A DNA stretch of 47,448 nucleotides from Anaerolineae bacterium (GCA_013178015.1 JABLXR010000033.1:1-47448), one strand, 5' to 3'. Counted from the first letter of the stretch, positions 4,636 to 29,927 are shown. The notes: a model not told the origin generated them from the sequence alone. Program-made: numbers and translations.

Positions 4636-5838
4636 TCAGGGCCGCCGCGTGCTTTCCCGCGATGGCGCCGCCGCGGCAAGGCCCGCACCGCCCCCCTTGC
4701 TGCCGAACACCTCGGCCTCCACCTCTCTCACCAGCTGAACGAAGTAGCGGAAGTTCTCGTACGGCACGTCCGTGGGCACACCGTGGTCCACGTTGGGGAT
4801 GTAGCCGCCGCTCCTCAGAAGCTGCGGCACCTTCGCCAGCACTTCGCGTTCCACCGCTGCCTTGTCCCGGGCCAGTTCCCGCTTGTCTATCCCCCCGATG
4901 AGGCCCAGCCTCTGCCCGTACCGCTCCCGCAGGGCCACGGGGTCCATCCCCGCAGCGATCTCCAGAGGGAAGACACTGTCTATCCCCGCCTCCAGCCAGA
5001 TAGGGATCAGCTCGTTGATATTGCCGTCGCTGTCCATGCTGACTACGGGCACGCCCGCGTCCCTGATGAAGGAGACGATCCTCCGGTAGCCAGGGAGCAT
5101 GAACCGGCGCACCATGGCCGGAGAGATCATGGAGGCGGTCTTGTAGGCCATGTCCTCATGGAGCATCACCCAATCCACCTCCACGTCCGCCAGGGCCCGT
5201 CGCGTGGCCTCGATGACGAAGTCGGCCACGAACTCCATCATCTCGTGCATGAGCCCCGGATCGTCGTACATGCACACCGACATCGCCTCCAGGCCCATCC
5301 AGTCCCGCACCTTGGAGAACATGGAGGGTATCACCAACCGCACCGGGTAGTCCCGATCCTTGATGCTGGCGGCGTACTGGGACCAATCGGAGGGATACCG
5401 TTCGGGGTGGCCGGCGTCGTGTCTCTCGATGATACGCAGGTAGTCGTGCCGCGTCTTGACCGGGAACTCGATCCAGGTGCGGGTCTGGAAGCCCGGCTCC
5501 GGCTGCTCGCGGAAGTCCAGGCGCTTGGCCCCCAGCTCGTCTATCCAGATCTGATACCGCTCGTCCTGCTCCAGGATTCGCTCCTCGAATCGCGGCAAGG
5601 GGCCATAGTCCACCGGCAGGTCTTCGCTGCGGTCGAAGCCGAGGTAGTCGCGCACCTTCCGCCAGGATTCCCGCCACGCCTCCTTCGAGTCGCTGCTGCC
5701 CAGCTCGGCCGGCAGGCCCTCCTGGAACCAGCGGTGTAGAGTGGCCTGGCGGAGGGCGCCGGAACGGCACCAGAAGAAGACCCCCTGCGGATCGCCGAAG
5801 GTCATAGTCTGGCGGAATCGCTGTCGGGCGTTGAGCAT
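4636..5838 (-). CDS. URO-D-family protein (MtaA/cobalamin methyltransferase-like), paralogue 1
   Basis: This is a 400-residue protein of the uroporphyrinogen decarboxylase fold. True HemE needs an N-terminal RQAGRY motif, which is absent; the C-terminal half instead resembles methyltransferases of the MtaA/MtbA/CmuA branch. Visible features are HEDMAYK (227-233), ISPAMVRRFMLPGYRRI (238-254), DSDGN (269-273), EAGID (283-287) and PLEIAAGMD (291-299). In the methyltransferase branch such acidic, His and Cys positions bind zinc and a thiol substrate; a clear HxCxnC site is not evident here, so the substrate is open. The start ATG has GGGGAGG about nine bases upstream. It is the last gene of the long minus-strand run, 28 bases after a TIM-barrel isomerase. 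The last 25 residues are Gly/Ala rich and probably disordered. Confidence 0.8.
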   Translation of the reverse strand: MLNARQRFRQTMTFGDPQGVFFWCRSGALRQATLHRWFQEGLPAELGSSDSKEAWRESWRKVRDYLGFDRSEDLPVDYGPLPRFEERILEQDERYQIWIDELGAKRLDFREQPEPGFQTRTWIEFPVKTRHDYLRIIERHDAGHPERYPSDWSQYAASIKDRDYPVRLVIPSMFSKVRDWMGLEAMSVCMYDDPGLMHEMMEFVADFVIEATRRALADVEVDWVMLHEDMAYKTASMISPAMVRRFMLPGYRRIVSFIRDAGVPVVSMDSDGNINELIPIWLEAGIDSVFPLEIAAGMDPVALRERYGQRLGLIGGIDKRELARDKAAVEREVLAKVPQLLRSGGYIPNVDHGVPTDVPYENFRYFVQLVREVEAEVFGSKGGGAGLAAAAPSRESTRRP

Positions 5839-5866
5839 CTGGTCGAACCTCCCCAGCTCTACAGGG

Positions 5867-6712
5867 TTACGTGATGTCGAATATGGCCGATATGGCGGCG
5901 CTGGTCTCGAAGATCAGCCTCTCTCCATGGTACCGGTAGGCCGGTAACACCTCGGACGTGATGTACCCGTCGTATCCTATGCCCCGCAGGGCCGCCGCTA
6001 CTCTGGGCCAGTTCACGGCTCCCTGAAGGAGCCCGGCAAAGCCGTCCAGACCACCCAACTCTGGGCGGTAGTCCTTGACGTGTACCCGCTTGATGCGCGG
6101 GCCCAGGATTTCGATCCAGTGCTCCGGGTAGCCCACCAACATGGCGTTAGCTACGTCCAGATACACGCCCGCGTGCGGGCTGTTCAGCTCGTCCACGAAG
6201 CGGGCCATCTCCAAAGGGCTAAGCAGGAACTTGTTGGGGACGTTCTCCAGGGCGAGCACCGTGTCCGCCTCCTCCGCCAGAGGAAGCAGACCGCTCAGCG
6301 CCGCCTGGACCCGCTCGTAGACCACGTCGCACCGGACGATCTCCGGCTCTTTGCCGAACAGCGAGTCGTCAACGGCGCCAGGGATCACCAGTACCGCCCC
6401 GATGCCCAGCAGGCCGGCGACCTCGATCAGACGCCCGACCACGGCGACGGCCTGGGCTCGGCGAGCTGCATCCGCGGTGCTGAGGCAGTACTCCCACTGC
6501 TGGCGGGAGTAGATGGAGCTGATCTCCAGGCCCAGGTCGCGCACCATCCGGCCAAAGGCGAGCAGCTCCCGGTCTGAGCTGGTGGGGTTGAGGTCGAGAC
6601 CCGGCTCCAGGTTGAGCTCCACGGCGTCGTATCCGGCCCGACGGGCCAGGCTGCAGCGTTCCCGGCTGCTCATGCTCTCGGGGAAGGCACGCAGGGTGAT
6701 GGACTTCTTCAT
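5867..6712 (-). CDS. Sugar phosphate isomerase/epimerase-like TIM-barrel protein 1
   Basis: This AP-endonuclease-2-superfamily (xylose isomerase-like) enzyme probably interconverts a ketose, keto-sugar or inosose by a metal-assisted proton shift. From the ATG at 6712 (AAGGAG eight bases upstream) it has 281 residues; the frame is open 95 codons further but that part translates repeat DNA. The four predicted metal ligands are E156 (ALENVP), D186 (YLDVAN), H211 (RVHVKDY) and E254 (TSEVLP). It lies downstream of an oxidoreductase across a 285-base repeat-bearing spacer and upstream of URO-D paralogue 1. The family covers many substrates, so the reaction is not assigned. Confidence 0.85.
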   Translation of the reverse strand: MKKSITLRAFPESMSSRERCSLARRAGYDAVELNLEPGLDLNPTSSDRELLAFGRMVRDLGLEISSIYSRQQWEYCLSTADAARRAQAVAVVGRLIEVAGLLGIGAVLVIPGAVDDSLFGKEPEIVRCDVVYERVQAALSGLLPLAEEADTVLALENVPNKFLLSPLEMARFVDELNSPHAGVYLDVANAMLVGYPEHWIEILGPRIKRVHVKDYRPELGGLDGFAGLLQGAVNWPRVAAALRGIGYDGYITSEVLPAYRYHGERLIFETSAAISAIFDIT

Positions 6713-6759
6713 GGGGTCGTGGTTCTCCTTGCGGGCGATGCGGGGGCGATGCCCTGCCC

Positions 6760-6888
6760 GAGGGCGAACACGAGTCTGAGGGCGAACACGAGGTTCGCCC
6801 CTACGACAGGCACGATGGCCAACCAGGGGTGCGCTGCGTGCGCCGGTGCCGGCCCGAGGGCGAACACGAGGTTCGCCCCTACGACAGG
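6760..6888. repeat. Dispersed short repeat with GGGCGAAC hairpin, 2.5 copies
   Basis: A 33-base unit occurs at 6778-6810 and again, identical, at 6856-6888, and its first 15 bases (GAGGGCGAACACGAG) occur once more at 6760-6774. Each full unit holds an 8-bp hairpin, GGGCGAAC-ACGAG-GTTCGCCC, followed by CCTACGACAGG. The copies lie between two genes of the long operon and do not code. Similar GGGGCGAACC-type repeats are, to my knowledge, widespread in some Chloroflexota genomes. Confidence 0.8.
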
Positions 6889-6997
6889 GGCGTTGTCTCG
6901 TACGGGCAGAGTCCGTGGCTGTCCAGGGCGCAGGCAGAGTTCGCTCGTGCAACAGCGGCCGCGAGATCGCCGCTTGCGGCCCCATGGCTTCCCCCAT

Positions 6998-8116
6998 TCA
7001 GCGGGCACCGCTCTCACCACCGATGTGCAGCCGCTCCAGGGGATGCTCGCGCGAAGCCAGAGGGAGAGCCACTCGCCTGCCATGGATGGCCGAGGCGTAA
7101 GCGGCCAGAATCATCTCCAGGGCCACCCGTCCGTCGGCGCCGCTCGACACCGGTTCCCTCCCTTCCTCGACGGCCCGGACCAGGTCCCAGGCCAGCCATC
7201 GATTGGTCTGCACCAGCCTCTGCTCCACTGGCAGGGCTTCCCAGCTTGGGACCTCCACTGCCTCCCAGCGGCTCTGGTCGCCTGGAGCCCATAGCCCCGA
7301 GCGGAGCCAGTACACCTCCCGCCGGTTGCTTCCTCGGATAGACAGGATCCCTTCCGAGCCGTACAGATCCACCCCCATACGCCGGGCCCCGCCGGGCAGG
7401 CCCCGGAAGGAGCGAAACTGCCCCCTGACGCCGCCGTCGAACCCGTAGACCGCCAGCACCTGATCCCCGGCCATGGGCCCTATGCCCTCCGGGCCGAGCC
7501 GAACGTCTTTCGGAGCGAGAGGGCGGCCGCCCACGGTCACGTCCGCCATGCACCAGGAGGGACGCCCGGCGAAGAAGCACATTAGGTCGAGGAAATGGGT
7601 GCCCAGCACCATCAGGTCTTCGCCCCCGCCCCTCACATCTTCCTTGCCCGCCGCCTGCATGGTGAGGAGGCGCCCGATGGCCCCGTCCTGCACCATCTGC
7701 CGAGCCGCCAGCACCGGTGGCGTCACCCGCGCCTGATGCGCAATGGCGATTCTGGTTCCCGCCTGGAGGCAAGCCTCTAGCATGGCATCGGCCTCGGCCG
7801 GGCTGCGGGCCAGCGGCTTCTCGCACAGCACCCCACGGACACCGGCCTCGGCACAGGCGATCGCCATGTCGGCGTGGCAGTCCAGCCAGCGTGGGGCTAC
7901 CGCCACCAGATCGGGCCGCTCCGCTGCCAGCATCTGCCGGTAGTCAGCATACGCGGCCCGGGCGCCTGTGCGCTCGGCAGCACTCGCCCGCCCGGCCTCG
8001 TCCTCGTCGGCGATGGCGACGTAGTCCACATCCGGGAGCCCGACCCAGCTCATTTCCAGACTGTGACCGTAGTCGCCTCGCCCCGTGCGGCCTATAGTCG
8101 CAGCGCGGTAGCCCAT
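6998..8116 (-). CDS. Gfo/Idh/MocA-family oxidoreductase 1
   Basis: This 372-residue NAD(P)-dependent sugar or inositol dehydrogenase family member has an N-terminal Rossmann domain (about 1-125) and a C-terminal substrate domain. The family EKP motif is at 99-101 (LCEKPLARS), and GTHFLDLMCFF supplies the usual C-terminal His region. The dinucleotide loop is atypical: where GxGxxG is expected the protein reads IGRTGRGDYGHS. This may be a family variant or may mean that the protein does not bind cofactor in the ordinary way. Its ribosome binding site (AGGGGAG) is good. It follows TIM-barrel isomerase 2 by 88 bases. A dehydrogenase-isomerase pairing is common in 3-keto-sugar and inositol catabolism; the substrate here is unknown. 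Confidence 0.85.
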   Translation of the reverse strand: MGYRAATIGRTGRGDYGHSLEMSWVGLPDVDYVAIADEDEAGRASAAERTGARAAYADYRQMLAAERPDLVAVAPRWLDCHADMAIACAEAGVRGVLCEKPLARSPAEADAMLEACLQAGTRIAIAHQARVTPPVLAARQMVQDGAIGRLLTMQAAGKEDVRGGGEDLMVLGTHFLDLMCFFAGRPSWCMADVTVGGRPLAPKDVRLGPEGIGPMAGDQVLAVYGFDGGVRGQFRSFRGLPGGARRMGVDLYGSEGILSIRGSNRREVYWLRSGLWAPGDQSRWEAVEVPSWEALPVEQRLVQTNRWLAWDLVRAVEEGREPVSSGADGRVALEMILAAYASAIHGRRVALPLASREHPLERLHIGGESGAR

Positions 8117-8204
8117 CTCTCGCTCTCCCCTAGGACCGACCGTTGGTGCGTGCCACGCGACCGTTCCTATAGCGCCCTGTAAGTTACGACATACTTAGTT
8201 CTAA

Positions 8205-9032
8205 TCACCCTATCGTCCCCGCACCGAAGTACCGCCGCAGCTGTGCCACGCTCTCCCGGGCGATGGTCTCCGGGTCCGGGCTGAAGTCGAACACCTCGAC
8301 CGACAGGTAGCGCGAGTAGCCCACCTCTCGGAGGGCAGAGGCGATGGCCGCGTAGTCAGCTCCCCCCATGCCCGGTCCCCGCCCGTTGTCGTCGTTGGCG
8401 TGGAAGTGGGCCAGGTGCCGGCCGGAGCGGCGGATGAGGTCTGGAATGGGCGCCTCGTCGTGGCTGGCGCTGCGTACGTCCAGCATCATCTGCAGGTTGG
8501 GGTGGCTAACCTCCTCCACCATCTGCAGGGCTTCGGCGGCGCGGGTGAGGAAGTCGGTGAGCGTGTGGCTGAGGGGTTCCAGGCAAAAGGTGACGCCTCT
8601 CTCTGCGGCCCGATCCAGCGCCCCCGCCAGCGTATCCACCGCATAGCCCCACGCCTCCACCGGGCTCAGCCCGGGAAGGACGTTGCGGTGCTTGGCCGAG
8701 CCCAGGACAATGATGGAGCCACCCACATCGCCGCAAAAGTCGGCCAGCGACCGCAGATAGGCGCTGGTGCGGGCCCTGATGGAGGGATCGGAGTGGTTGA
8801 GGTAGATGCCCTCCGGCCCCCGGGTGACGGTGTGCAGGCCGACGACTTCCAGCCCCGTTCCCTCGGCGATGGACCGGATCCGCCGGCGCTGCCCGCTGGT
8901 TATGTCACATACGGAGTCGGCGAAGGTCCAGGGGGCTATCTCCACCCCGTCGTAGCCCACCTCGGCCACGAGCCAGCACACTCGCTCAAAGTCCCAGTCC
9001 TGGAAGGTATCGTTACAGATGGCTGTCTTCAT
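8205..9032 (-). CDS. Sugar phosphate isomerase/epimerase-like TIM-barrel protein 2
   Basis: This 275-residue member of the xylose isomerase-like TIM-barrel family retains all four metal ligands: E152 (CLEPLSH), D185 (MLDVRS), H211 (AHFHAND) and E246 (SVEVFDF). The HFHANDDNGRGPG stretch is typical of the ketose epimerase and 3-keto-sugar-processing subgroup. The start ATG follows GGGGAGGCCG. It sits between an amidohydrolase (upstream) and oxidoreductase 1 (downstream). Substrate and exact reaction cannot be read from motifs. Confidence 0.87.
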   Translation of the reverse strand: MKTAICNDTFQDWDFERVCWLVAEVGYDGVEIAPWTFADSVCDITSGQRRRIRSIAEGTGLEVVGLHTVTRGPEGIYLNHSDPSIRARTSAYLRSLADFCGDVGGSIIVLGSAKHRNVLPGLSPVEAWGYAVDTLAGALDRAAERGVTFCLEPLSHTLTDFLTRAAEALQMVEEVSHPNLQMMLDVRSASHDEAPIPDLIRRSGRHLAHFHANDDNGRGPGMGGADYAAIASALREVGYSRYLSVEVFDFSPDPETIARESVAQLRRYFGAGTIG

Positions 9033-9093
9033 CGGCCTCCCCAGTTCCCGTCAATGACCGCCGTCAGGCGCGTGCCCTTCGAGCCGAAACCTC

Positions 9094-10068
9094 TCACCTG
9101 ATGCGGAAGAGCTGGCGGGCATTGCCGCCCAGGATCCGCTCCTTGTCCGCCGCCGGAACGTCCATACCCTCGATCAGTCGGAGGAACAACCCGATGTCCA
9201 CCCAGGGGTGGTCGCTGCCGAAGACGAGGCGGTCGGCGCCGGCGAAGTCGTAGGCGAAGCGGATGGCCTCGGGGGCGGGCGACACGGTGTCCAAGTAGAC
9301 GCGCCGGTAATAGTGGCGCGCCGGCTGGGTGATGTTCTCCCTGCCCCGGCCCATGACTTCGGTCTGGTTCTCAATCCTCCCCCACAGGTAGGGCAGGATG
9401 CCGCCACAGTGAGGCTGGACCACCTTCAGCCGCCGGTGGCGCTCCAACACTCCCCCCAGGATGAGCCGCAGAGTGGCGAAGCTCTGCTCCACCATCAGGC
9501 CCACCATGGGGATCATGGAGTAGTCCTTGATGGCCGCCCCCCACGAGGGCACGATGGGGTGGATGACCACCGGTACGTCCAGCTCCGCCGCGCGGGCGTA
9601 GAGGGCGTCGTAGGTGCGGGCGTCCACCGGGTCGTTGCCGATGCGGGAGTAGAGCATGAGCCCCCGCAGGTCCAACTCACGCACCGCCCGATCCATCTCC
9701 GCCAGCGCCGCCGGCACGTCCTGCCAGGGCAAGCAGGCCAGCCCGGCCAACCGGTCGGGGTGATCGCCCACCACGGCGGCCAGGTAGTCGTTGGCCACTC
9801 GGGCCGCCTCCAGCGCCACCGATGGGTGGAGCGCCTCGGGACCCGGCATGTTGACGCTGATTACGCTCACGTCTATGCCGCTGGCGTCCATGTCGCGCAG
9901 CTTGCGCTCGATGCTGTAGACCTCCGGATCGAGGCTGAAGCTCTGCACGTCGCCGTAGGTGACCAGGTAGCGATCGCCTTGGCGAACGGCGCGAGGCTGG
10001 CCGGGGTTACGAGCTAACACCTCGGCATACTCGCGGGGGAACACGTGGGTCTGGCAGTCTATGCGCAT
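9094..10068 (-). CDS. Amidohydrolase-2 family metal hydrolase/decarboxylase
   Basis: This 324-residue TIM-barrel hydrolase belongs to the ACMSD/amidohydrolase-2 group (PF04909 type), whose members hydrolyse lactones or amides or decarboxylate aromatic acids. The ATG at 10068 follows AGAGGA at good spacing; upstream codons overlap the next gene and look non-coding. Metal-site candidates are H8, H170 (VIHPIVPS), H220 (QPHCGG) and D286 (GSDHPW). The usual HxH at the N-terminus reads Q6-T-H8, so one histidine is replaced by glutamine. In a sugar locus it could open a lactone formed by a Gfo/Idh/MocA dehydrogenase, which is an inference from position. Confidence 0.85.
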   Translation of the reverse strand: MRIDCQTHVFPREYAEVLARNPGQPRAVRQGDRYLVTYGDVQSFSLDPEVYSIERKLRDMDASGIDVSVISVNMPGPEALHPSVALEAARVANDYLAAVVGDHPDRLAGLACLPWQDVPAALAEMDRAVRELDLRGLMLYSRIGNDPVDARTYDALYARAAELDVPVVIHPIVPSWGAAIKDYSMIPMVGLMVEQSFATLRLILGGVLERHRRLKVVQPHCGGILPYLWGRIENQTEVMGRGRENITQPARHYYRRVYLDTVSPAPEAIRFAYDFAGADRLVFGSDHPWVDIGLFLRLIEGMDVPAADKERILGGNARQLFRIR

Positions 10069-10090
10069 GACGCGTCCTCTCGATGAGTCA

Positions 10091-10882
10091 TCACAGCCGT
10101 GCCAGCAGAGCGCCCAACTGGCGCAGGGCACTCATGGTGTTGTCCGCCCCCCGCCAGTGCTCCACCGTGAGCGGCCCTTGGTAGCCGTCGGCCAGTAGGG
10201 CTCGGATAGCCGTCTCGTAGGTCTCACCGGCCCCGGCCAGGGGAAGCTCGGGGTTAGGCTTCACGTGCACGTCACGAGTGATGCCGCGGGCGTACCCGTA
10301 GCCCTGCCTAGGCGGCTCACCGGCACGCCAGGCGACGTCGATCTCCCAGACGATGCCGGCCGCAGGGGAGTCGCCCAGCGCCTGGAGCACGTGCCGTAGC
10401 TCCTGGGCCGTCCGGGCCAGAGTGGAGCCCACCGCCTCAAGGCAGAGGACCACGCCCTCGGCCTCCGCCCGACGTACCAGTGGGGCACAGCGATCCACCA
10501 CTAGATCCAGGTGCTCATCCAGCCGAGAGGGCTCGTACTCGACCACGCCCTTACGCTGGAAGGGGAAGACGCGGATGAGATCGGTGCCGAAGGTGTGAGC
10601 CAGTTCGATCATCCGAGGCAGCGAGGCGACGTTGCGCGCCACCTCCTGCGGGTCCTCCACGCTGCACTTGCCGACGGCAGAGTACACGGCGCTCACGCTC
10701 GCCCCGTGCTGGGCGAGGATCGCCTTCATGCGGTCCACATCCGCCGCCGACAGGTCCTCCAGGTTCTTGCCCCAGAGGCGCGAGCGCAAGGCCACTGACC
10801 GCGCCCCGGCCTCGACCCCCAAGCGCACCGACTCCTCGAAGTCGTCCGCCATCTCGGGGGCGATGTACGCCAGCTCAGTCAC
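10091..10882 (-). CDS. Sugar phosphate isomerase/epimerase-like TIM-barrel protein 3
   Basis: The best start is the GTG at 10882: AAGGAGG lies six bases before it, and the upstream gene ends inside it (8-base overlap, GTGACTGA). That gives 263 residues. Metal ligands of the xylose isomerase-like barrel are present as E149 (CLEAVGS), D182 (WEIDVAW), H206 (DVHVKPN) and E241 (LTVEHWRG). An earlier in-frame ATG lies inside the previous gene and has no ribosome binding site. The overlap with oxidoreductase 2 indicates translational coupling, so the two proteins probably act on the same intermediate. Confidence 0.87.
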   Translation of the reverse strand: MTELAYIAPEMADDFEESVRLGVEAGARSVALRSRLWGKNLEDLSAADVDRMKAILAQHGASVSAVYSAVGKCSVEDPQEVARNVASLPRMIELAHTFGTDLIRVFPFQRKGVVEYEPSRLDEHLDLVVDRCAPLVRRAEAEGVVLCLEAVGSTLARTAQELRHVLQALGDSPAAGIVWEIDVAWRAGEPPRQGYGYARGITRDVHVKPNPELPLAGAGETYETAIRALLADGYQGPLTVEHWRGADNTMSALRQLGALLARL

Positions 10883-11873
10883 GTTCCACCTCCTTGTCCA
10901 GCCGAATCTCACGCCCTGTGGTAGAGGATTGCTCCACCGCCTTCAGCACCTGCACCGTGTGCCGGGCTTCCGTGCCGGGCACCGGGCAGGGGCCGCTCCC
11001 CTCCAGGTAGGTCAGGAACTCGGCCCACTCGCGCACCTTGTCGTCCTCAGTTTCCACCGGCCTCTCGGTCCATTGCTCGTCCAGCCCCACCCAGAGCCGC
11101 TTGCGCTCGCAGCGGAGCATGCCCCCGGTGCAGGTAAGCTCCACCATGTCCTTGGGGGCTCCGCGCCGGTAGCCGGTGACCAGAGACACCGTGTGGGCGC
11201 CGTTGGCGTGCTGCAGCAACGCCATCGAGGCGTCGTCGGCGTCCATCTGCTCCGGGGTGTGGAAGCGGAGGGCGCTAGACCCCTTGACCGCCACCACCGG
11301 GCTCCCGGCGAACCACATTAGGGTGTTGACGCTGTGGATGCCGTTGGCCTGCCACATTCCCCCTCCACGCCCACGCTCCAGGTGCCAGCCGCGACGCTTG
11401 TCGATGCCCCAGTTCTTGCTGAAGGTGGAGATGGCGAAGACCAGATCGCCCACCTCTCCCGAATCCAGGATGGCCTTGGCCGCCTGGCAGCCGTCGTAAT
11501 AGCGGTAGCTGTGCCCTACCGAGAGCTTCACTCCGGCCCGCTCCACCGCCTCCAGGATCTCGTCGCACTCGCCCACGTTGGCGGCCATGGGCTTCTCCAG
11601 AAGGATGTCTTTCCCCGCCTGGGCTGCCATCACGGCGTAGGAAGCGTGGAGGTCGTGAGGCAGGGAGATGACGACGCAGTTCACGTCCCCCGCAGCCAGC
11701 AGGTCCTCGGCCCGGCTATAGGCCATCGCTCCGTATTGCTCCGCGAAGGGCCGGCGCTGCTCCTCTACCACATCCGCCACGGCCACCAGCTTGGCCCGGT
11801 CGGGGAAGCGCCCGATGGCGCGGGCGTGGGCTCGGGCGACTCCGCCACAACCGATGATGCCGACGTTCACCAT
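10875..11873 (-). CDS. Gfo/Idh/MocA-family oxidoreductase 2
   Basis: This 332-residue NAD(P)-dependent dehydrogenase has a canonical N-terminal dinucleotide loop (GIIGCGGVARAHA, from residue 5), the EKP motif (LLEKPMA, 92-98) and the C-terminal signature GIHSVNTLMWF that carries the catalytic-region His. It is closer to classical inositol and hexose dehydrogenases of the family than the other copy in this locus. The start ATG follows GAGGAGAG. The 3' end overlaps TIM-barrel isomerase 3 by 8 bases. Substrate unknown. Confidence 0.9.
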   Translation of the reverse strand: MVNVGIIGCGGVARAHARAIGRFPDRAKLVAVADVVEEQRRPFAEQYGAMAYSRAEDLLAAGDVNCVVISLPHDLHASYAVMAAQAGKDILLEKPMAANVGECDEILEAVERAGVKLSVGHSYRYYDGCQAAKAILDSGEVGDLVFAISTFSKNWGIDKRRGWHLERGRGGGMWQANGIHSVNTLMWFAGSPVVAVKGSSALRFHTPEQMDADDASMALLQHANGAHTVSLVTGYRRGAPKDMVELTCTGGMLRCERKRLWVGLDEQWTERPVETEDDKVREWAEFLTYLEGSGPCPVPGTEARHTVQVLKAVEQSSTTGREIRLDKEVERD

Positions 11874-11903
11874 GTGTATCTCTCCTCTGCCGCCGGCCCG
11901 CCC

Positions 11904-12983
11904 TCAAGCACAGACCAGCGGATACTGTCCCAGGTCCACCACCAGGCGGTGGAGGAAGTCCATGGTCTCCACCGAGATGTCCGGCCCCACCGAGTGGGCT
12001 CCCACCACCAGCCCCCCTTCTCGGGCGGCGCTGAGAACGTGAAGGAAGTGCCTCTCCAGCTCGTTTCGATCCCCCCGAGGCAGGACGTGGGCGTTGTCCA
12101 GTCCACCCACGAAGGCGAGCCGATCACCGTACCTCTCCCGCAACGCCACCACGTCCATGCCGGCCTTGGGCTCCACCGGGTTCAGGGTGTCTATGCCGGC
12201 ATCGAGCAGCATGTCTAGGATGGCCTCCACGTTGCCGTCGCAGTGAAGCCCGACGCTGGCCACACCAGCCTCCCGGAAGGCGGCGCTCATCCTGCTGTAG
12301 CAGGGCAGGAACACCCGCTCGAACGTCCGAGGGGAGAACATCGGGCCGTGGTTGGAGCCCATGTCGTCGTAGATCCAGATGGCGGTGTCGTAGAGGTCGT
12401 AAAGACGTAGCGCCTGCAACCCCACGGCAGTGATGTGCTCGCTCACGCGCAGCGAAAGCTCCCGAGCGAAGGCCTCATCCTCAACCAAGTCGATCAGCCA
12501 CTGTGTGGCGCCGCGGAAGTTGCCTGCCCGGAGGTAGGGGCCACCCACCTTGACGAAGACGTACTTTCGCTGCCTCAGCGCCTCCACCTCGGCCCGGGAT
12601 GGGAAGCGGGAGTCGAGCAGAGGCGACTCAAACTCGAGCCTGTCGGCTCCTGACTTGTCGGGTAGCGCCACTTCCAGAGTCATGGGCGGGCTCAGCCAGG
12701 CATCGCCCTTATGACGCCGCTCTATGGCTCCCCAGCCGTCGCGCACGATCTGGTAGGCGCCCTCATCGGCCAGAACGGCGCGTTGGCTGGGGAAAGGGGT
12801 CTCGTCGGGGATGACCCGGCCCATGTCGATCTCGTAGTAGTCCTCGATGTCCTGGCCGGCGGCACCCCCTCCCCGCTGCCGCCAGGCCTCCTCGAACTGG
12901 GGCCAGAAGCTGTTGAAGTACCAGGGGACCCGATCGGGCTGGCGGAAGTCCAGGGCCGCTCGAACCCGCTCCACGCTATTCAT
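11904..12983 (-). CDS. URO-D-family protein, paralogue 2
   Basis: This 359-residue protein has the uroporphyrinogen decarboxylase fold. Visible motifs are the N-terminal RVRAALDFRQPDRVPW (6-21), typical of the family's methyltransferase-like branch, YDDMGS (205-210), HCDGN (247-251), DAGIDTLNPVEPKAGMD (261-277) and RLAFVGG. The HemE RQAGRY motif is missing. H247 and C248 in the DGN motif are a possible thiol/metal site that the other three copies in this locus do not share. The ribosome binding site is GGAGG, six bases from the ATG. It lies between URO-D paralogue 3 and oxidoreductase 2 with 30-base gaps on both sides, consistent with one operon. Confidence 0.82.
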   Translation of the reverse strand: MNSVERVRAALDFRQPDRVPWYFNSFWPQFEEAWRQRGGGAAGQDIEDYYEIDMGRVIPDETPFPSQRAVLADEGAYQIVRDGWGAIERRHKGDAWLSPPMTLEVALPDKSGADRLEFESPLLDSRFPSRAEVEALRQRKYVFVKVGGPYLRAGNFRGATQWLIDLVEDEAFARELSLRVSEHITAVGLQALRLYDLYDTAIWIYDDMGSNHGPMFSPRTFERVFLPCYSRMSAAFREAGVASVGLHCDGNVEAILDMLLDAGIDTLNPVEPKAGMDVVALRERYGDRLAFVGGLDNAHVLPRGDRNELERHFLHVLSAAREGGLVVGAHSVGPDISVETMDFLHRLVVDLGQYPLVCA

Positions 12984-13013
12984 CGAGGACCTCCGTTTGG
13001 GCGCGGATGCCCG

Positions 13014-14114
13014 CTATCCCCCGAACGAGCGGACCAGCTCGACGAAGTGGGCGTAGTGGGCGAAGGGGATGTCGGGCATCACCAGGTCGTCCAGGGCAGG
13101 GATGAAGCCGCCCTGCTCCACCAGCCAGGGCACCTTGGCGTAGAACTCCTCCTCGATAGCCTCCGGGCCCCGCTGGAAGGCCTCCCGGCTCAGGTTCCCC
13201 AGCAGAAGGATGTCAGAGCCGAACTCCCGCCGTAGGCGCACGGCGTCCATGCCGGCGGCGCACTCCAGCGGGGCGAACGTGTTGTACCCGGCCTCCAGCA
13301 TGGACGGGATCAGGGCCTCCACGTTGCCACTGCTGTAGAAGCCGATGCAGTCCACCCCACTGGCACGGAGGAAGTCGTTCACCTTGCGGTGGTGCGGCAT
13401 CCAGAAGCGGCGGTACATGGCCGGGGAAATGAGAGACTTGTCCTTGTAACCCAGGCCATCATCGGAGACGAAGACGTAGTCTACACGAGCCAGGCTGACC
13501 ATCTCCCGTAGCAGGTCGATCAGGAAGTCGGCCCAGAAGCTGAACATCGCCTCGACGAGAGCCGGCCGGTCGTGGAGGGCGACCAGGAACTCCTCCAGCC
13601 CCATGGTGTACCCGTTCTTGGAGGCGCGCCCGGGCCCCCAGTACTGGAAGAGGCCGTAGAGGCCGCTGGTCGAGCGCGAATGGGCGATCAAGTCCTCACC
13701 CCAAGTCTTGGGGTAGCGCCTGAGGTCCCGGCCATCGTAGCGCCGGCTGAGGGCCGCCCAGTCGGCCTCGTCCTTCACCAGGCCGCCCACGTAGTAGTAC
13801 ACGACGGGGCTCACCGACTGCCGCTTCAGAGTGCGGACGGTGAAGCCGTAACGGTCTACAGTAGTGACCCACTCCTCGTCTTCGGCTACCTTCCGCGGTA
13901 CGAAGTTCGGAATGGGATCCTCATCCAGCCGCACGCTGCCGGACAGCAGCCGGTGATCGAAACCGAAGTAGCTGTCGGGAGTAGCGCCGAGGGGGAAGCC
14001 CTGTTGGCACCAGAGCCTGACCGCCTGCTCGCTGAAGCCTTCCAGGTCCCAGAATGGCAGCCGGTCCGGCTGCTGGAAGTGCATGACGTGGTAGAATCGT
14101 TCTCTGGCGTTCAT
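13014..14114 (-). CDS. URO-D-family protein, paralogue 3
   Basis: From the ATG at 14114 this is a 366-residue URO-D-family protein; the frame continues upstream only into the dispersed hairpin repeat. Visible motifs are MNARERFYHVMHFQQPDRLP (1-20), SDDGLGYKDK (217-226), SGN (262-264, where paralogue 1 has DGN), EAGYNTFAPLECAAGMD (274-290) and ILLLGN. The first 20 residues and the PLE-AAGMD region match paralogue 1 closely, so the two look like relatives within the locus. The ribosome binding site is weak (GGAGCTGC). Methyl transfer is the likely chemistry by family analogy only; the change of Asp to Ser in the DGN motif may shift function. Confidence 0.82.
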   Translation of the reverse strand: MNARERFYHVMHFQQPDRLPFWDLEGFSEQAVRLWCQQGFPLGATPDSYFGFDHRLLSGSVRLDEDPIPNFVPRKVAEDEEWVTTVDRYGFTVRTLKRQSVSPVVYYYVGGLVKDEADWAALSRRYDGRDLRRYPKTWGEDLIAHSRSTSGLYGLFQYWGPGRASKNGYTMGLEEFLVALHDRPALVEAMFSFWADFLIDLLREMVSLARVDYVFVSDDGLGYKDKSLISPAMYRRFWMPHHRKVNDFLRASGVDCIGFYSSGNVEALIPSMLEAGYNTFAPLECAAGMDAVRLRREFGSDILLLGNLSREAFQRGPEAIEEEFYAKVPWLVEQGGFIPALDDLVMPDIPFAHYAHFVELVRSFGG

Positions 14115-14147
14115 GGTCTCTGCAGCAGCTCCGATAGCGCAGTGTGT

Positions 14148-14218
14148 GCCACAGAGGCACAGAGACACTGAGACGAAGGAACGGTGTCCTACCCTCTGCG
14201 TCTCCGTGTCTCAGTGGC
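14148..14218. repeat. Dispersed hairpin repeat (CACAGAGGCACAGAGAC family), copy 1
   Basis: An imperfect 71-base inverted repeat: the left arm starts GCCACAGAGGCACAGAGAC and the right arm ends CTCCGTGTCTCAGTGGC. It fills the gap between the SGNH hydrolase and URO-D paralogue 3. A second member of the same family lies about 0.9 kb away at 15055-15125. Such 'cacagagacacagag' elements recur in many environmental genomes; here they mark intergenic gaps inside an operon. Confidence 0.75.
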
Positions 14219-14229
14219 AACCGCTGGGG

Positions 14230-14988
14230 TCATGGGAAGAAGGGCGCCTTGGTACTGACTACCCCGTAGTCCGCCTTGAGGGCCGACTCGTCCCGCCAAC
14301 GGGGGGCCGTCCTCTCGATCTCCCGCGTGTGCCGGGCCAGGCCGGAGCAGTTCTGGGCCAGCACCTCGAAGATGCAGTTGGCGATGACCCGGTGCCCCAG
14401 ATCGTTCTGATGCACGCCGTCGTAGTGGACCATCCAGTCCGCCCCGCCGCTGGCGGTCAGCACGTCGGCGTACAGGCAGTCCTCCTTGGCTGCCACTGCG
14501 ACCGTGGCCTGATTGAACTGGTGCAGCAGCTCCAGGCTGCCATTGCTCCAGATGGGAGCCCCACGGGCGAAGTCAATGACGTAATAGGGCCCTACCAGCA
14601 CCATCAGAGGCTGGACATGGAGACGCACCTGGCGGACGATGTTGGTCATCTCCTCAGCGAAGAGCTCCACCGGCGTGCCGGCGCGGGAGTCGTTCAGCCC
14701 GTAGGCGATCACGAGCAGGTCGGGCCGGTGGGCGATGACGTGCTTGTCCAGCCGTTCCAGAGCGGCGGGACGGCCGCTCTCGACGTAGTGAGCACTACGG
14801 GCGGAGACTACGTTGCCGCCGATGGCCGAGTTGACCAGCACCACCGGCTCCGCCTGGAGGTCGTTGATGAGCGCAGCCAGGATGGAGGCCCAGCAGCGCT
14901 CGGGCCTGGTGGACCAGCCGCCGGCCGCGGTGCTCTCGCCCAGCACCACTAGCTTCCGGAACTCCTCCGGGTGCCAATCTCGCTTCAA
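14230..14988 (-). CDS. SGNH/GDSL-family hydrolase
   Basis: This is a serine esterase or deacetylase of the SGNH superfamily. The likely start is the TTG at 14988, preceded at ideal distance by GAGAGGAGG; an in-frame ATG 19 codons upstream has no such site. That gives 252 residues. Block I is VVLGESTAAGG with nucleophile S19 (GES instead of GDS), block II is IGGNV, block III is GLND, and block V is DGVHQNDLGH with the catalytic Asp and His. No signal peptide is visible, so it probably acts in the cytoplasm on an imported substrate, for example removing acetyl or another acyl group from a sugar (inference from neighbours). Confidence 0.85.
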   Translation of the reverse strand: MKRDWHPEEFRKLVVLGESTAAGGWSTRPERCWASILAALINDLQAEPVVLVNSAIGGNVVSARSAHYVESGRPAALERLDKHVIAHRPDLLVIAYGLNDSRAGTPVELFAEEMTNIVRQVRLHVQPLMVLVGPYYVIDFARGAPIWSNGSLELLHQFNQATVAVAAKEDCLYADVLTASGGADWMVHYDGVHQNDLGHRVIANCIFEVLAQNCSGLARHTREIERTAPRWRDESALKADYGVVSTKAPFFP

Positions 14989-15054
14989 CCCAGTCCTCCT
15001 CTCCGAACAGGTGCTTCCACTCTTCCGCCTGCGATTGGACCGCACCGGAGACTA

Positions 15055-15125
15055 GCCACGGAGGCACAGAGGCTCAGGGAAGGGGATACCATGCATTGCC
15101 TCTGTCTCTCCATGTCTCTGCGGCC
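15055..15125. repeat. Dispersed hairpin repeat (CACAGAGGCACAGAGAC family), copy 2
   Basis: An imperfect inverted repeat in the gap between URO-D paralogue 4 and the SGNH hydrolase. The left arm starts GCCACGGAGGCACAGAGGC and the right arm ends CCATGTCTCTGCGGCC. It is clearly related to the copy at 14148-14218 in sequence and length (71 bases), with a variable centre. Confidence 0.7.
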
Positions 15126-15136
15126 GGTCCTCTGAA

Positions 15137-16204
15137 TCATGGCAAGCATGCGGGTATCGGGATCCGGCCGTGCCGCTCGATGGCCCGGGCGATGGCGGGG
15201 ACGGTCTGGCGCCAGTCGCCGGGCACGTCCTCGAAGACGCCCAGCATGAATCGGTCCCCCGGCGCCGACTGGCGGATGATGTCCACCGCCGCCTCCTCCA
15301 CTGCCTGGGGGCCCCAGTGATGCAGAGACGACGGGAAGTTCATGAGGATCACCTTGCCCGGCCACGCGCGGCGCGCCTCCGCCAGGGTGAGATCACCCTC
15401 GGGCGGGGGAGTGAAGGACTCGATGAAGTCCAGCCTCGAGCGCCCTATGGCCTCAGTCAGAGGCCCCTGTTTGGCGTCCAGGTGGGCTCCCACGTGCTTG
15501 CCCCGGCGGTGCATGACGTCGGCGCAATGGTTCCAGTGGGGTAGGACGTACTCCTCGAACCGGGGCCGGCCCATGACCTCGGCGCTGACGTTGCCATCGC
15601 AAATCACGCTGGCTGCCGGCGACTCCGCCGCCACCTCGCATCGCACCCGAAAGTCGTCCGCCAGGGCCTCATATAGGCGGAGCACCTGGAGGCGGCGGTC
15701 GGCCCACTCGTAGGCGAACCGCTCCACCCCGATGATCTCATAGATGATCTCCTGCAACGGCGACCAGCCCAAGCGCACCCGCTCCACGATGTCACCCCCG
15801 TCTCCGGCCACGGCGTCATCGTAGGCCCGGTACTTGGGGGTATAGGCGCGGGCCCGGATCATGACCTCGATGGCCTCGTAGTCTTGGGGGCCGCTGAACC
15901 AGAGCTTCTCGTGCCAGGTGGTGCCGGGAGCGGGCCGGTCCACCTTGCAGACATCTCCGGCCGGGGTGTGCACGGTGGTCTTCTCCCGCCAGACGCCATC
16001 CGCGCCCCGATAGCGGAGGACCTCCTCGGCAAGATCCTGGTAGCTCTCGTTCCACACCGACATCTTGTTGATGATGCACAGCCCCTGGTTGCGAAGCTGA
16101 CGCTCCACCTCACACCGGGGGATCTTGTTGTAGAAGGCGACGAAGGGAATGCGGTCGGGCATTTCGCCCCGGAGGACGGCCAGGAACCGATCCCGCGGTG
16201 TCAT
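15137..16204 (-). CDS. URO-D-family protein, paralogue 4 (divergent)
   Basis: This 355-residue protein starts like the family (MTPRDRFLAVLRGEMPDRIPF), but its C-terminal half differs from the other three copies. CDGN occurs early, in the context ICDGNVSAEVMGRPRFEEYVL (from 201), and the position where the others have DGN/SGN reads GAHLDAKQG (239-247), followed by ESFTPPPEGD (262-271) in place of PLE-AAGMD. This resembles URO-D-fold proteins with altered metal or substrate sites seen in sugar loci. The start overlaps the stop of the sialidase-like gene by four bases (ATGA), so the two are translationally coupled. Function unknown; methyltransferase or lyase activity is a guess from the fold. 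Confidence 0.8.
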   Translation of the reverse strand: MTPRDRFLAVLRGEMPDRIPFVAFYNKIPRCEVERQLRNQGLCIINKMSVWNESYQDLAEEVLRYRGADGVWREKTTVHTPAGDVCKVDRPAPGTTWHEKLWFSGPQDYEAIEVMIRARAYTPKYRAYDDAVAGDGGDIVERVRLGWSPLQEIIYEIIGVERFAYEWADRRLQVLRLYEALADDFRVRCEVAAESPAASVICDGNVSAEVMGRPRFEEYVLPHWNHCADVMHRRGKHVGAHLDAKQGPLTEAIGRSRLDFIESFTPPPEGDLTLAEARRAWPGKVILMNFPSSLHHWGPQAVEEAAVDIIRQSAPGDRFMLGVFEDVPGDWRQTVPAIARAIERHGRIPIPACLP

Positions 16205-17370
16205 CCTAGAGCCTCTCCGGTCACCCAGCTGACCGGGACGGACACGTACTTAATGCACTGCCGTCCGGCGTAGGTGTAGGAGGCATGCAGTCTGCCATCC
16301 TTCGACTGCAGCAGGCACGGGTAGGAGTTCTCCCGGTTCAGACGCTTGTTGGCCTCCCCGGCGAAGTTGTCGCCCGTGTCCAGGTGGCGCATGTAGGGCC
16401 AGGTGTCGCCGCCGTCTTCGGAGATGGCGATGGTCACCGGGTAGCGCTCCTTGGGCCAGACCGTCAGGCCGGGATCGTCGTTGGCGCTCACGCAGTTGAA
16501 GATGATGGCGATGCGGCCGTCCGCCAGTCCGATGGCATGCACGGAGGCGTTGTTGTTGGGCAAGACGGTGCGCTCTGGCCTCGTCCAGGTGCGCCCGAAG
16601 TCGTCGGACCGGCTGCGGTAGATGCGGTCGGCAGCGCGGCTGCGGAAGAAGGCTAGCAGCCGGCCAGGCTCCACCTCAATCACCGATGGGTGCACCCGAC
16701 CGCGAGCCTCGGGAACCGGGTGCTCGGTCCAAGTCTCTCCCTGATCGGAGGACACCTGCATGACGGAGTAATCGGTGCCCCTGCCAGCACTGGGCAAGCT
16801 GTAGTACATGGGGAGCAGCCAGTCGCCGTTGCTGAGCACGGCCACTGTATGGCGGCAGAAGGAGCCGGGCCGGTCGAAGATGGGGGAGGCCCGTCCCCAG
16901 GTGCGGCCGCCATCAGAGGAGACGCGGCGCATGATGGCCGCCGTCTCCTGCAGCGAAAAGGAACCGCTGGCCTTTCCCGCCGCCACTTGTCGCTCCCACT
17001 CCTCTCGGCTGACCCCGCGAGTCTCCTGGGAGGTATAGCAGGCCCACACTTCGCCCGTTGGCGTGATGAACAGGAACGGGTTCTGCTCCGAACGCTGGTT
17101 GGGCTCCGACAGCCGCACCGGCGCACTCCAGCGCGACTGATCGCGCCCCAGCCGGGAGAGGTACACCTTGATGTCGCTGGCGCCCTCGTCGGAGCCGCCG
17201 AACCACACGCAGAGCAGGTCGCCGTCGTCCAACTCGGCCAGATAGGAAGCATGGTTGGAGCGGCATCCGGTGGGCACCAAGGCCTCCACCCGGTCCGAGT
17301 CCGCCGGCGGGCGGTACAAGACCCCACCCTGAACCATGCCTCTCAGGTCAAGCACCTCGCGGTCTCCCAT
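16201..17370 (-). CDS. Sialidase-like BNR-repeat glycosidase (COG4692 type)
   Basis: This is a six-bladed beta-propeller protein with at least four Asp-box repeats of the S-x-D-x-G-x-T-W type: SSDGGRTWG, SSDQGETWTE, SDDFGRTWTR and SEDGGDTWPY. The most likely start is the ATG at 17370, nine bases after AAGGGGG, giving 389 residues; an ATG three codons earlier lies too close to that site. There is no signal peptide, so it acts inside the cell. Family members release sialic acid or other exo-linked residues, or act as lyases; the sialidase label is structural and not proof of substrate. It is coupled to URO-D paralogue 4. Confidence 0.82.
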   Translation of the reverse strand: MGDREVLDLRGMVQGGVLYRPPADSDRVEALVPTGCRSNHASYLAELDDGDLLCVWFGGSDEGASDIKVYLSRLGRDQSRWSAPVRLSEPNQRSEQNPFLFITPTGEVWACYTSQETRGVSREEWERQVAAGKASGSFSLQETAAIMRRVSSDGGRTWGRASPIFDRPGSFCRHTVAVLSNGDWLLPMYYSLPSAGRGTDYSVMQVSSDQGETWTEHPVPEARGRVHPSVIEVEPGRLLAFFRSRAADRIYRSRSDDFGRTWTRPERTVLPNNNASVHAIGLADGRIAIIFNCVSANDDPGLTVWPKERYPVTIAISEDGGDTWPYMRHLDTGDNFAGEANKRLNRENSYPCLLQSKDGRLHASYTYAGRQCIKYVSVPVSWVTGEALG

Positions 17371-17436
17371 TGTTGGCATCCCCCTTCTTGGTGTCGTCAC
17401 CACTGGCTGGGATTCAGACGATCAGGCGCGAAGGTT

Positions 17437-17799
17437 TCAGGCATCGAGGTGCTGGTCCGCCGGATCAAAGGGCGGCACTCCCATCACGACACAGGTCAGC
17501 TCGCCCTCAGCGTGGTGGGTGGCACCGGGTCGCACCATGACCACGTCACCCATCTCTAGCGGCACCGGCTCGCCATCCACCATCAGCCGGCCGCTCCCCT
17601 CGAGAACGTAGTAGTACTCCGTGGTTGTCCGGTGAAAATGCGGGCGGGCCCCGCTCATGGTCGTCACGTGGATGCTGGCCGGGGACCCATCGGCCCCGGT
17701 GATCAGGCGGCGGCGGGAGCCGCAGATGTCCCACTCCAGCTCCACGTCGCTCGGGCTCCGCTTCAGATAGCTGCTGACCAAGCCGGTCCTGTTGCTCAC
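17437..17799 (-). CDS. Small cupin-domain protein
   Basis: This 120-residue single-domain cupin carries motif 1 as HFHRTTTEYYYVLEG (H54, H56, E61) and motif 2 around PGATHHAEG (H95 or H96), the usual Mn/Fe/Zn site. The start is a GTG at 17799 with AAGGGG upstream, embedded in the last codons of the permease. Small cupins in sugar operons often bind or isomerise sugars (mannose-6-phosphate or ketose isomerase-like) or sense ligands; which applies is not shown. It is followed by the sialidase-like gene after 66 bases. Confidence 0.85.
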   Translation of the reverse strand: MSNRTGLVSSYLKRSPSDVELEWDICGSRRRLITGADGSPASIHVTTMSGARPHFHRTTTEYYYVLEGSGRLMVDGEPVPLEMGDVVMVRPGATHHAEGELTCVVMGVPPFDPADQHLDA

Positions 17800-17803
17800 T
17801 GTG

Positions 17804-18670
17804 TCACCCCTTAAGGCCGGTGAGGGCGATCCCCTGGATGAAGGTCTTCTGCACGAAGAAGAACACGACCACGATGGGGAGCAGGGCTAGCACGGAGCCG
17901 CACATCAACCAGTCGAACCGGGTGCCGTAGCGGCCCGTGAACCACCGAATCCCCACCGCCAGCGTAAGGCTGTTGGGCGTGCGCAGGAAGACCAGCGGGC
18001 GCACGAACTCGTTCCAGGTGCCGATGAAGGTGAAGATGGCCACGGTGGCGATGGCGGGCTTGGACAGCGGCAGCACGATGCTGGTAAGGATGTTCACCTT
18101 GTTCGCGCCGTCCATGATGGCCGCCTCGTCCAGCTCCTTGGGCAGGGTGAGGAAGTACTGACGCAGGATAAAGATGGAGAAGGCCGACCCGAACATGGCC
18201 GGCACCCAGAGGGCGTAGAGCTTGTCCAGCCAACCAAACTTCCAGAACAGGACGAACTGGGGCACCAAGTAGACGTGGAAGGGGATCATCAGCGTGGCCA
18301 GCACCATGAGGAACAGCTTGTCCCGTCCTGGGAAGCGGGTCCGGGCGAAGCCATAGGCGGCCAGGGTGCTGGATATGGTGTTGCCGGTGACGCTGAGGAC
18401 CGTCACGGTGATGGAATTCCTCACCCAGTAGGCGAACGGCCCCTGTTCCCACATCTCGGCGTAATTCCCCCAGCGAGGCGGGTTGGGGATCCATATCGGA
18501 GGGAAGGTGGCGATCTCGGACATGGAGAGCAGCGAGGTTCTTACCATCCAGAAGAAGGGGAAGGCGAAAATGAGGCTGCCAGCGATCAAGAGCAGGTAGA
18601 CCAACAGCCGCTCGACGAGCCGCGCTCCCATCGCCCAGCTGGAGTGCTTCCTGGTTACTGTAGCTGCCAT
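17804..18670 (-). CDS. Carbohydrate ABC transporter permease, MalG/UgpE type
   Basis: This inner-membrane subunit belongs to a CUT1-family sugar importer. The 288 residues from the ATG at 18670 (GGAG five bases upstream) contain six hydrophobic segments, the first about residues 24-44. The ATPase-contacting EAA loop reads ELDEAAIMDGANKVNIL followed by VLPLSKP. A GTG seven codons upstream is an alternative start without a ribosome binding site. It follows the MalF-type permease and precedes the cupin; the stop is five bases from the cupin start. Confidence 0.93.
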   Translation of the reverse strand: MAATVTRKHSSWAMGARLVERLLVYLLLIAGSLIFAFPFFWMVRTSLLSMSEIATFPPIWIPNPPRWGNYAEMWEQGPFAYWVRNSITVTVLSVTGNTISSTLAAYGFARTRFPGRDKLFLMVLATLMIPFHVYLVPQFVLFWKFGWLDKLYALWVPAMFGSAFSIFILRQYFLTLPKELDEAAIMDGANKVNILTSIVLPLSKPAIATVAIFTFIGTWNEFVRPLVFLRTPNSLTLAVGIRWFTGRYGTRFDWLMCGSVLALLPIVVVFFFVQKTFIQGIALTGLKG

Positions 18671-18718
18671 TCTCTCTCCATCCTCCGCCACTGGCGGCCG
18701 TGATCCCGGCTCATGCGG

Positions 18719-21454: not shown

Positions 21455-21852
21455 CGCCCTTCTCCTTTGGCACATCAAGATGGCCGCGAGTCCTTGGCGC
21501 CGGACGTCGTGTCCTGGCGTGCCACCTCAATCTTGGAACCACGCCTTTTGGCTGGGGGGCACTACATCCGGCCAGGGTCGGCCGAGCCCCCCGCTCTAGC
21601 TTAGGCCTCGACACCAACGGGTTGTACCGTCTACTACCACCTCCTTCCTGCTGCGCAGCGGGAGCAGTACCGGTGCTGATAGACCAGGGGCGAGGTCACC
21701 CCTCCCGGTCGGCACGAACGCCGCTAGCGCCTGGTCACCGGATGCCGCGACCTTCGGCGCTGTGGTAACATTATGCTCGATAGGGGCGTGCCATTGCTTG
21801 CCATCATCCTGCCAAGCTCTGCCGACCTGCTGCGCTCGACGGAGGTGAATGG
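21455..21852. other. Divergent control region between binding protein and regulator genes
   Basis: This 398-base region separates the start of the long minus-strand operon from the plus-strand regulator, so it must hold promoters for both. I see no strong paired -35/-10 on either strand; TATGCT (21772-21777, plus) is a possible -10 for the regulator without a good -35. Short imperfect palindromes (AGGGGCGAGGTCACCCCT near 21687) are candidate operators. No coding sequence is supported. Confidence 0.4.
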
Positions 21853-25175: not shown

Positions 25176-25377
25176 GTGCATGCCTCCGAAGCACCCCAGT
25201 ACGCTGCAGCAGTCCCATCGTACCCCCGATGGTCCATTGGTGCACCTGGGAGATTGCCGCAGTTGCCCAGGGTCAGGGCAGCGATCTCGTCAGCACCATT
25301 ACCATCCGCCCTTCGCCGAGCTCGGGGAAACCGAGGATCAACGCGAGCGTCAGCGCAGTCACATACCCCAGACTAGC

Positions 25378-26768: not shown

Positions 26769-26782
26769 GACCTTCGTATATC

Positions 26783-28384: not shown

Positions 28385-28411
28385 GACCGGCGACGGCGTG
28401 GTCGGGGCAAA

Positions 28412-29827: not shown

Positions 29828-29927
29828 GAACCATCCCCCTTGCCACCACGGGCTCGATCGCCAGCCCCATTCCCCTGGCGCAGAACGGCATCCCGGAGAA
29901 ATCGGTGCCGGACGGGGCCGCTCCGGG

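Follow-up and report, generated by a model that had tools for sequence, protein, structure and literature searches.

Four divergent URO-D proteins in a sugar-import operon of an Anaerolineae bacterium as candidate corrinoid-dependent demethylases

The operon and its four URO-D proteins

The window considered here is a stretch of 47,448 nucleotides (nt) from the genome of an Anaerolineae bacterium (GCA_013178015.1, JABLXR010000033.1:1-47448). Its minus strand carries a sugar-import operon that encodes four divergent proteins of the uroporphyrinogen decarboxylase (URO-D) fold, here called P1 to P4 (Table 1). A first-pass annotation, made from the sequence alone, had described four such proteins in one sugar-import operon between 4636 and 16204. 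All four open reading frames (ORFs) are present there in the ORF listing of the window, but the unit reaches further, as a run of 16 minus-strand genes spanning 4636-21478 that takes in the importer genes. Read from 21478 downwards, the order is a binding protein, two CUT1-type permeases, a cupin, a BNR_2 protein, P4, a GDSL protein, P3 and P2; then, down to 4636, come Gfo/Idh/MocA, AP_endonuc_2, Amidohydro_2, AP_endonuc_2, Gfo/Idh/MocA, AP_endonuc_2 and P1. Two permeases of the MalF/MalG class and a sugar-type binding protein together make up a CUT1 importer. The intergenic gaps are at most 91 nt, except for 312 nt separating the first permease gene from that of the binding protein and about 285 nt above the last AP_endonuc_2 gene (AP1) if the latter starts at 6712. 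From this spacing we infer a single transcript. Scans for promoters and terminators gave a signal no higher than in shuffled sequence.

The four proteins score above the Pfam URO-D (PF01208) cut-off of 23.9 bits, P4 marginally so by sequence (Table 1). AlphaFold modelling, proposed in the first-pass annotation as a check, bore out the fold for the two proteins modelled. P1 matches UROD with Z = 25.4 and MtaA with Z = 22.5, and P4 matches UROD with Z = 23.8 (over 295-298 residues) and MtaA with Z = 21.7. The UROD matches of the two models extend over about 300-320 residues, and the UROD/MtaA TIM barrel is full-length in both models. The demethylase CdmB (PDB 9rui) is not in the fold-match lists, which were drawn from a PDB copy to April 2026.

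The family models separate the proteins from HemE. At the columns of the HemE motif RQAGRY, an alignment with E. coli HemE places a gap or unrelated residues in all four. The hemE model (TIGR01464, cut-off 303 bits) gives 33.6 bits for P1 and 17.9 bits for P3 and no match for P2 or P4, while mtaA_cmuA (TIGR01463, cut-off 235 bits) gives 33-45 bits for P1-P3, under its cut-off, and no match for P4. No heme genes were identified in the window. It was claimed at the outset that none of the four has the HemE motif and that no heme genes are nearby, and both statements hold; the family-model scores support a placement of P1-P4 on the methyltransferase side of the family. The relatives named then (MtaA, MtbA and CmuA) did not include the closest functional precedents (MtvB, OdmB, VdmB, MtoB and CdmB; PMC13222342). 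In a tree of the genome's own URO-D proteins, P1 and P3 belong to one clade of ten members, P2 to a sister clade of four and P4 to a distant clade of five. Spread over different clades in this way, the four are not the products of one recent duplication. Elsewhere in the P1 clade, two near-identical genes on different contigs (L061 7547-8695 and L063 9295-10464) have very short branches indicating a recent duplication.

The predicted metal site also departs from that of the known enzymes. The reference for the alignment was MtaA of Methanosarcina mazei, with zinc ligands H-x-C...C. The thiol-binding HxC...C ligands are absent from P1-P4 in this alignment. The corresponding positions hold D269-x-D271...H352 in P1, H247-x-D249...H in P2, Y-x-S...D in P3 and H241-x-D243...E325 in P4; the similarity is low in this region, so the individual ligand assignments are to be taken as predictions. 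Across 50 P1-type sequences, E228, D229, D269, D271, G272, E293, K319, D351 and H352 are invariant, giving the signature ED-MAYK, DxDG, GGIDKR and DH. Asp and His ligands would favour a harder metal, one that activates an oxygen rather than a thiolate. The missing zinc triad would not in itself exclude methyl transfer, because CdmB of the same superfamily functions without zinc; zinc is also reported to be non-obligatory for a Moorella enzyme (PMC13222342).

Table 1. Genes of the operon and the adjoining regulatory genes, with positions in the window.
Feature	Position	Strand	Basis
P1, URO-D-fold, 400 amino acids (aa), DxD...DH variant of MtaA metal site	4636..5838	-	Pfam URO-D 76 bits; AlphaFold pLDDT 93
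AP1, AP_endonuc_2 (xylose-isomerase-like TIM barrel)	5867..6712	-	PF01261 138 bits
Gfo/Idh/MocA oxidoreductase 1	6998..8116	-	PF01408, PF22725, PF02894
AP2, AP_endonuc_2	8205..9032	-	PF01261 139 bits; nearest solved are ketose 3-epimerases (D-psicose 3-epimerase E = 2.7e-24)
Amidohydro_2 protein	9094..10131	-	PF04909 144 bits; nearest solved are 5-carboxyvanillate and ACMS decarboxylases, E = 1.9e-32
AP3, AP_endonuc_2	10091..10912	-	PF01261 87 bits
Gfo/Idh/MocA oxidoreductase 2	10875..11873	-	PF01408 103 bits; nearest solved are glycoside 3-dehydrogenases DgpA1 (E = 4e-27) and DgpA2
P2, URO-D-fold, 359 aa, HxD...H site	11904..12983	-	Pfam URO-D 45 bits; mtaA_cmuA 45 bits; no hemE match
P3, URO-D-fold, 384 aa, metal-site residues lost (YxS...DD)	13014..14168	-	Pfam URO-D 63 bits
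GDSL-like lipase/esterase	14230..15045	-	PF13472 80 bits
P4, URO-D-fold, 355 aa, HxD...E site	15137..16204	-	Pfam URO-D 25.8 bits; AlphaFold pLDDT 86
BNR_2 sialidase-like protein	16201..17403	-	PF13088 197 bits; sialidases distant, E = 2e-10 and weaker
Small cupin protein	17437..17799	-	PF07883 48 bits
CUT1-type permease, UgpE/MalG class	17804..18691	-	PF00528; UgpE model 132 bits, under the model's own cut-off
CUT1-type permease, UgpA/MalF class	18719..19660	-	PF00528; UgpA model 96 bits, under the model's own cut-off
Sugar-type substrate-binding protein	19973..21478	-	No Pfam match; sugar-binding proteins E = 1e-11
Response regulator	21853..23043	+	PF00072; similar pairs adjoin P2-type loci L058 and L068
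Hybrid histidine kinase	23034..25181	-	ORF; groups with histidine kinase/response regulator genes; 44% identical protein by the P2-type locus of G002

Related genes in the host genome and in other bacteria

The observation in the window is real, and it is larger than the first-pass annotation could see. The host genome (4.57 Mb in 97 contigs, 95% complete) holds 77 Pfam URO-D matches, so the presence of URO-D proteins in the window is not a matter of chance. These matches amount to about 76 distinct proteins of useful length; P4 and one other P4-type gene were missed by the genome search and lie outside the 77. The genome itself seems to lack HemE, since its top Pfam URO-D score is 125 bits compared with at least 385 bits for the true HemE of its classmates. 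When 73 of its URO-D proteins were tested, 68 matched the MtaA-type coenzyme M (CoM) methyltransferase model, 65 matched mtaA_cmuA (best 4e-27) and 21 matched hemE (best 8e-13), all weakly. A family profile run against the PDB found MtaA (4ay7) at the top with 86 bits and a best UROD at 66 bits; CdmB was matched weakly by a 24-member profile (E = 1e-9), over a 140-residue profile match only. In the site region, HxD (23 proteins) and HxC (22, MtaA included) are equally common among the genome's URO-D proteins. Two further loci with URO-D genes were noted. At L054 256-4747, three adjacent genes that share a family with one another lie directly upstream of a P1-clade URO-D gene, and one of them encodes an FAD-dependent oxidoreductase (PF12831). 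At L242 8514-10808, a 764-aa ORF matching URO-D, about twice the usual length, heads four adjacent URO-D genes and may be a double-domain fusion.

The first-pass annotation had found no corrinoid protein or reactivase encoded in the window. That is true, but the genome has both, and the search for orphan corrinoid proteins that it proposed did recover stand-alone ones. On contig C14, a corrinoid protein with both B12 domains adjoins MttB. A second corrinoid gene exists in at least two near-identical copies, which break the assembly at the ends of C64, C74, C44 and C94 (L101 1-150, L107 13600-13731, L095 1-300 and L108 1-300). On C64, the start of this duplicated gene lies directly behind two URO-D genes in a CUT1 operon. 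Three RACo reactivases are encoded as well, along with CODH/ACS subunits and pterin-binding methyltransferases. At the genome level, a corrinoid protein, a reactivase and a pterin-binding second methyltransferase (MTII) are thus all present, and the lack of the first two in the window does not count against methyl transfer.

The association with sugar import recurs, as had been proposed. Among 56 URO-D loci of the genome, 25 have a CUT1-like permease within 10 kb, compared with 24% of the genome (p = 6e-4). Each of the genome's four P2-type genes belongs to a CUT1 operon or adjoins one, and three of them are near two-component genes as well; P2-type genes of three relatives show the same association with CUT1. 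A general link between URO-D and AP_endonuc_2 did not emerge (12/56 loci, 21% expected). One member of the same family of bacteria (G002, L232) has a CUT1 operon with four URO-D genes, one of P2 type at 58% identity, together with AP_endonuc_2 and Gfo/Idh/MocA genes. P2-type genes are found near MttB and CUT1 genes at L237 and L238, and likewise at L097 of the host genome itself. Among 396 genomes of the window's class searched with profiles, 7 have P2-type genes and 28 have P4-type genes. At L248, in a classmate genome, a P4-type gene lies at a distance of two genes from a corrinoid protein and of three genes from MtmB. This MtmB-family monomethylamine methyltransferase (6962-8389, 314 bits) has no in-frame stop and is possibly pyrrolysine-free.

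P1-type relatives were sought in 84,980 species genomes with a three-member P1-clade profile, an eight-member profile being too divergent. They occur in Armatimonadota, Planctomycetota, Lentisphaerae, Latescibacterota, Aerophobetes, Chloroflexota, Omnitrophota and others. In three other genomes (L129, L135 and L145), the P1-type gene is directly behind a stand-alone corrinoid-protein gene with gaps of 6-12 nt, and these three proteins are identical to P1 at 13 conserved positions. At L129, genes for phosphofructokinase and class II aldolase (PFK, FBA) precede the pair. A conserved neighbourhood of P1-type genes across phyla was also considered and rejected; the surroundings are mostly varied, with any one neighbour family present at 6 of 80 loci at most.

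The reactivase often co-occurs with these genes. RACo is found in 49 of 50 genomes carrying a P1-type gene. In the window's class, it is present in 28/28 genomes with at least 5 scored URO-D matches and in 19/32 others (Fisher p = 7e-5), counted among the matches listed (at most 28 per genome) and in genomes that are not phylogenetically independent. In Armatimonadota, 11/11 genomes with a known P1-type gene have RACo compared with 93/140 others (p = 0.018).

Proposed role and alternatives

We propose, at a probability of about one half, that P1, P2 and P4 are demethylases that use a corrinoid to act on an imported methylated sugar or glycoside and that feed the Wood-Ljungdahl pathway. The CUT1 transporter would import a methylated sugar-like compound or glycoside, a type of substrate that would fit the gene context; a methoxylated phenolic glycoside is a real alternative. 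P1, P2 and P4 would be the substrate-specific methyltransferases (MTI), and P3 perhaps a helper or a divergent enzyme. With the substrate in the TIM barrel of each MTI, a metal bound at the former MtaA zinc position by Asp, His or Glu ligands would activate the ether oxygen, and the methyl group would pass to a corrinoid protein in its Co(I) form, whose gene lies in another part of the genome. RACo would maintain that protein in the reduced state, a pterin-binding MTII would move the methyl group to tetrahydrofolate, and CODH/ACS would use it. The demethylated remainder would be degraded by the Gfo/Idh/MocA, AP_endonuc_2, amidohydrolase and esterase proteins. Each URO-D protein might remove a different methyl group; as a matter of speculation, several of them in one operon may serve several methyl positions. 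The involvement of a corrinoid is suggested by the homologues and by co-occurrence.

Several observations weigh against this proposal. The operon encodes no corrinoid protein, RACo or MTII, and the window has no corrinoid, RACo or Ram/RACE gene. There are about 76 URO-D proteins and only about three stand-alone corrinoid proteins, so that several URO-D proteins would need to share a partner. The site residues are missing from P3, and carboxylate ligands could suit an isomerase or a lyase equally well. Among 80 P1-type loci, a corrinoid gene is nearby in only 3 and a CUT1 permease in only 4 (clearly at L147 and L152). The fold is of no use for discriminating decarboxylases from methyltransferases, both classes matching at Z 22-25. 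The single P1-type genome without RACo (G067, L120) carries MttB and four URO-D genes. The background of RACo is high (104/151 Armatimonadota), and given this background, the figure of 49 in 50 was not retained as decisive; the co-occurrence supports the corrinoid link but does not prove it.

The main rival is that the URO-D proteins use no corrinoid, and that a TIM barrel with Asp, His and Glu ligands carries out new metal-dependent sugar chemistry with the Gfo/Idh/MocA and AP_endonuc_2 enzymes, such as epimerisation, retro-aldol cleavage, elimination or decarboxylation of a 3-keto sugar or sugar acid. The absence of a corrinoid partner from the operon and the excess of paralogues over corrinoid proteins agree with it, as does the invariant D-x-D...D-H with E228, D229, E293 and K319 in 50 P1-type proteins, which is unusual for a thiolate-binding zinc site; P1-type genes also occur in many carbohydrate-degrading phyla beside varied sugar genes. 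We nevertheless consider it less likely than the demethylase proposal in view of the corrinoid genes that adjoin P1-type homologues and lie near P4-type ones with the same site, the co-occurrence with RACo, and the scores of P1-P4 as distant relatives of the MtaA/CmuA type. It is less probable still that P1-P4 are themselves MTII enzymes, like MtaA, MtbA and MtgA, passing a methyl group from a corrinoid protein charged by MttB or MtmB to a thiol or folate, with methylamines or betaine-like compounds rather than ethers as substrates. The nearest solved relative by profile, MtaA, is an MTII; in three genomes MttB is close to P2-type genes, and a P4-type gene is close to MtmB and a corrinoid protein. 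But the window's operon has no MttB or MtmB that could be found, its importer is of the sugar type, all four proteins are without the HxC...C thiol-binding ligands, and four different MTII enzymes in one operon would be odd.

Corrinoid-dependent O-demethylation could also be directed at the methoxylated aromatic aglycone of a plant phenolic glycoside, by MtvB/OdmB-like enzymes in a glycoside-degrading operon. The known O-demethylases of the UroD superfamily use methoxylated aromatics (PMC13222342), Gfo/Idh/MocA oxidoreductase 2 is closest to the glycoside 3-dehydrogenases DgpA1 and DgpA2, and the amidohydrolase is closest to 5-carboxyvanillate decarboxylase. Against these similarities, no gene for ring cleavage or other aromatic degradation was recognised among those of the operon, the proteins resembling sialidases and ketose epimerases suggest a carbohydrate, and the similarity to CdmB, the only member compared from the O-demethylase side, is weaker than that to MtaA; we regard an aromatic target as improbable. 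Finally, uroporphyrinogen decarboxylases or recently decayed HemE copies would share the observed fold (Z 24-25). That identity is ruled out by the lack of RQAGRY and by the scores, at most 34 bits for the four proteins and 125 bits for the best URO-D protein of the genome.

The demethylase proposal can be set beside the known systems. UroD-superfamily O-demethylases and dehalogenases include MtvB, OdmB, VdmB, MtoB and CdmB, some of which need no zinc (PMC13222342). P1-P4 share their fold superfamily, and the MTI role proposed would likewise involve a stand-alone corrinoid protein, an activating enzyme and a pterin-binding MTII. Unlike the MtvB/OdmB/CdmB type, the partner genes here are outside the operon, the operon has a sugar importer and sugar enzymes, and the similarity to CdmB is weak. 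By profile, MtaA, MtbA and CmuA (TIGR01463, PDB 4ay7) are the best-scoring characterised relatives, and the site positions align; however, HxC...C is replaced in P1-P4, the scores are far under the family cut-offs and there is no CoM context. Several distinct URO-D methyltransferase paralogues linked to corrinoid are also found together in Type 1 mlp gene clusters (Kountz and Balskus, PMC10418091). Those clusters carry a corrinoid protein and Ram/RACE and are tied to methyl-sulfur or methyl-selenium compounds, whereas this one has a CUT1 importer, sugar enzymes and no corrinoid gene. The Gfo/Idh/MocA protein nearest DgpA, together with AP_endonuc_2 proteins, recalls DgpA/DgpBC and other 3-keto-glycoside pathways, a likeness known from sequence; here, however, there are four additional URO-D proteins. 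With HemE, P1-P4 have the fold in common, but not the motif, the scores or the heme context. Membership in any named family cannot be claimed, because the defining motifs of HemE and MtaA are absent and the corrinoid-MTI class is matched only at the genome level and through homologues.

More tentatively, P1-P4 may represent a large uncharacterised group of URO-D-fold proteins with a carboxylate/histidine site (DxD...DH, HxD...H/E) that demethylates carbohydrates or glycosides in anaerobes via shared corrinoid proteins, with dozens of copies per genome in Chloroflexota and P1-type relatives in Armatimonadota, Planctomycetota and related phyla. In the open-access papers searched (subscription journals not covered), we found no description of corrinoid-dependent sugar demethylation or of a URO-D expansion of this kind. 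URO-D proteins other than HemE are widespread in uncultured anaerobes but are routinely named after the heme enzyme. The presence of about 76 of them in one genome without HemE points to a major metabolic toolkit. If their role is the corrinoid-dependent demethylation of imported carbohydrates or glycosides, sugar catabolism would be tied to the Wood-Ljungdahl pathway, providing an oxygen-free, B12-dependent route for the use of methylated sugars and a function for this part of the URO-D superfamily. The P1-type signature defines a directly testable family.

Adjoining genes

Upstream of the operon, the response regulator is probably the controller of the operon and the hybrid histidine kinase its partner. 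Within the operon, the ORF of AP1 as listed runs to 6997 and probably starts too early, the likely start being at 6712. The approximately 285 bases between Gfo/Idh/MocA oxidoreductase 1 and AP1 (6713-6997) contain imperfect 40-nt direct repeats that are in frame within the long ORF. Adjoining the operon at 25443-29965 are two family-4 glycosidases on either side of an L-lactate permease-like protein; a GH4-like gene also follows a CUT1 and P4-like operon at L250. From translations, the minus strand at 29928-36579 looks like a compact tryptophan biosynthesis operon.

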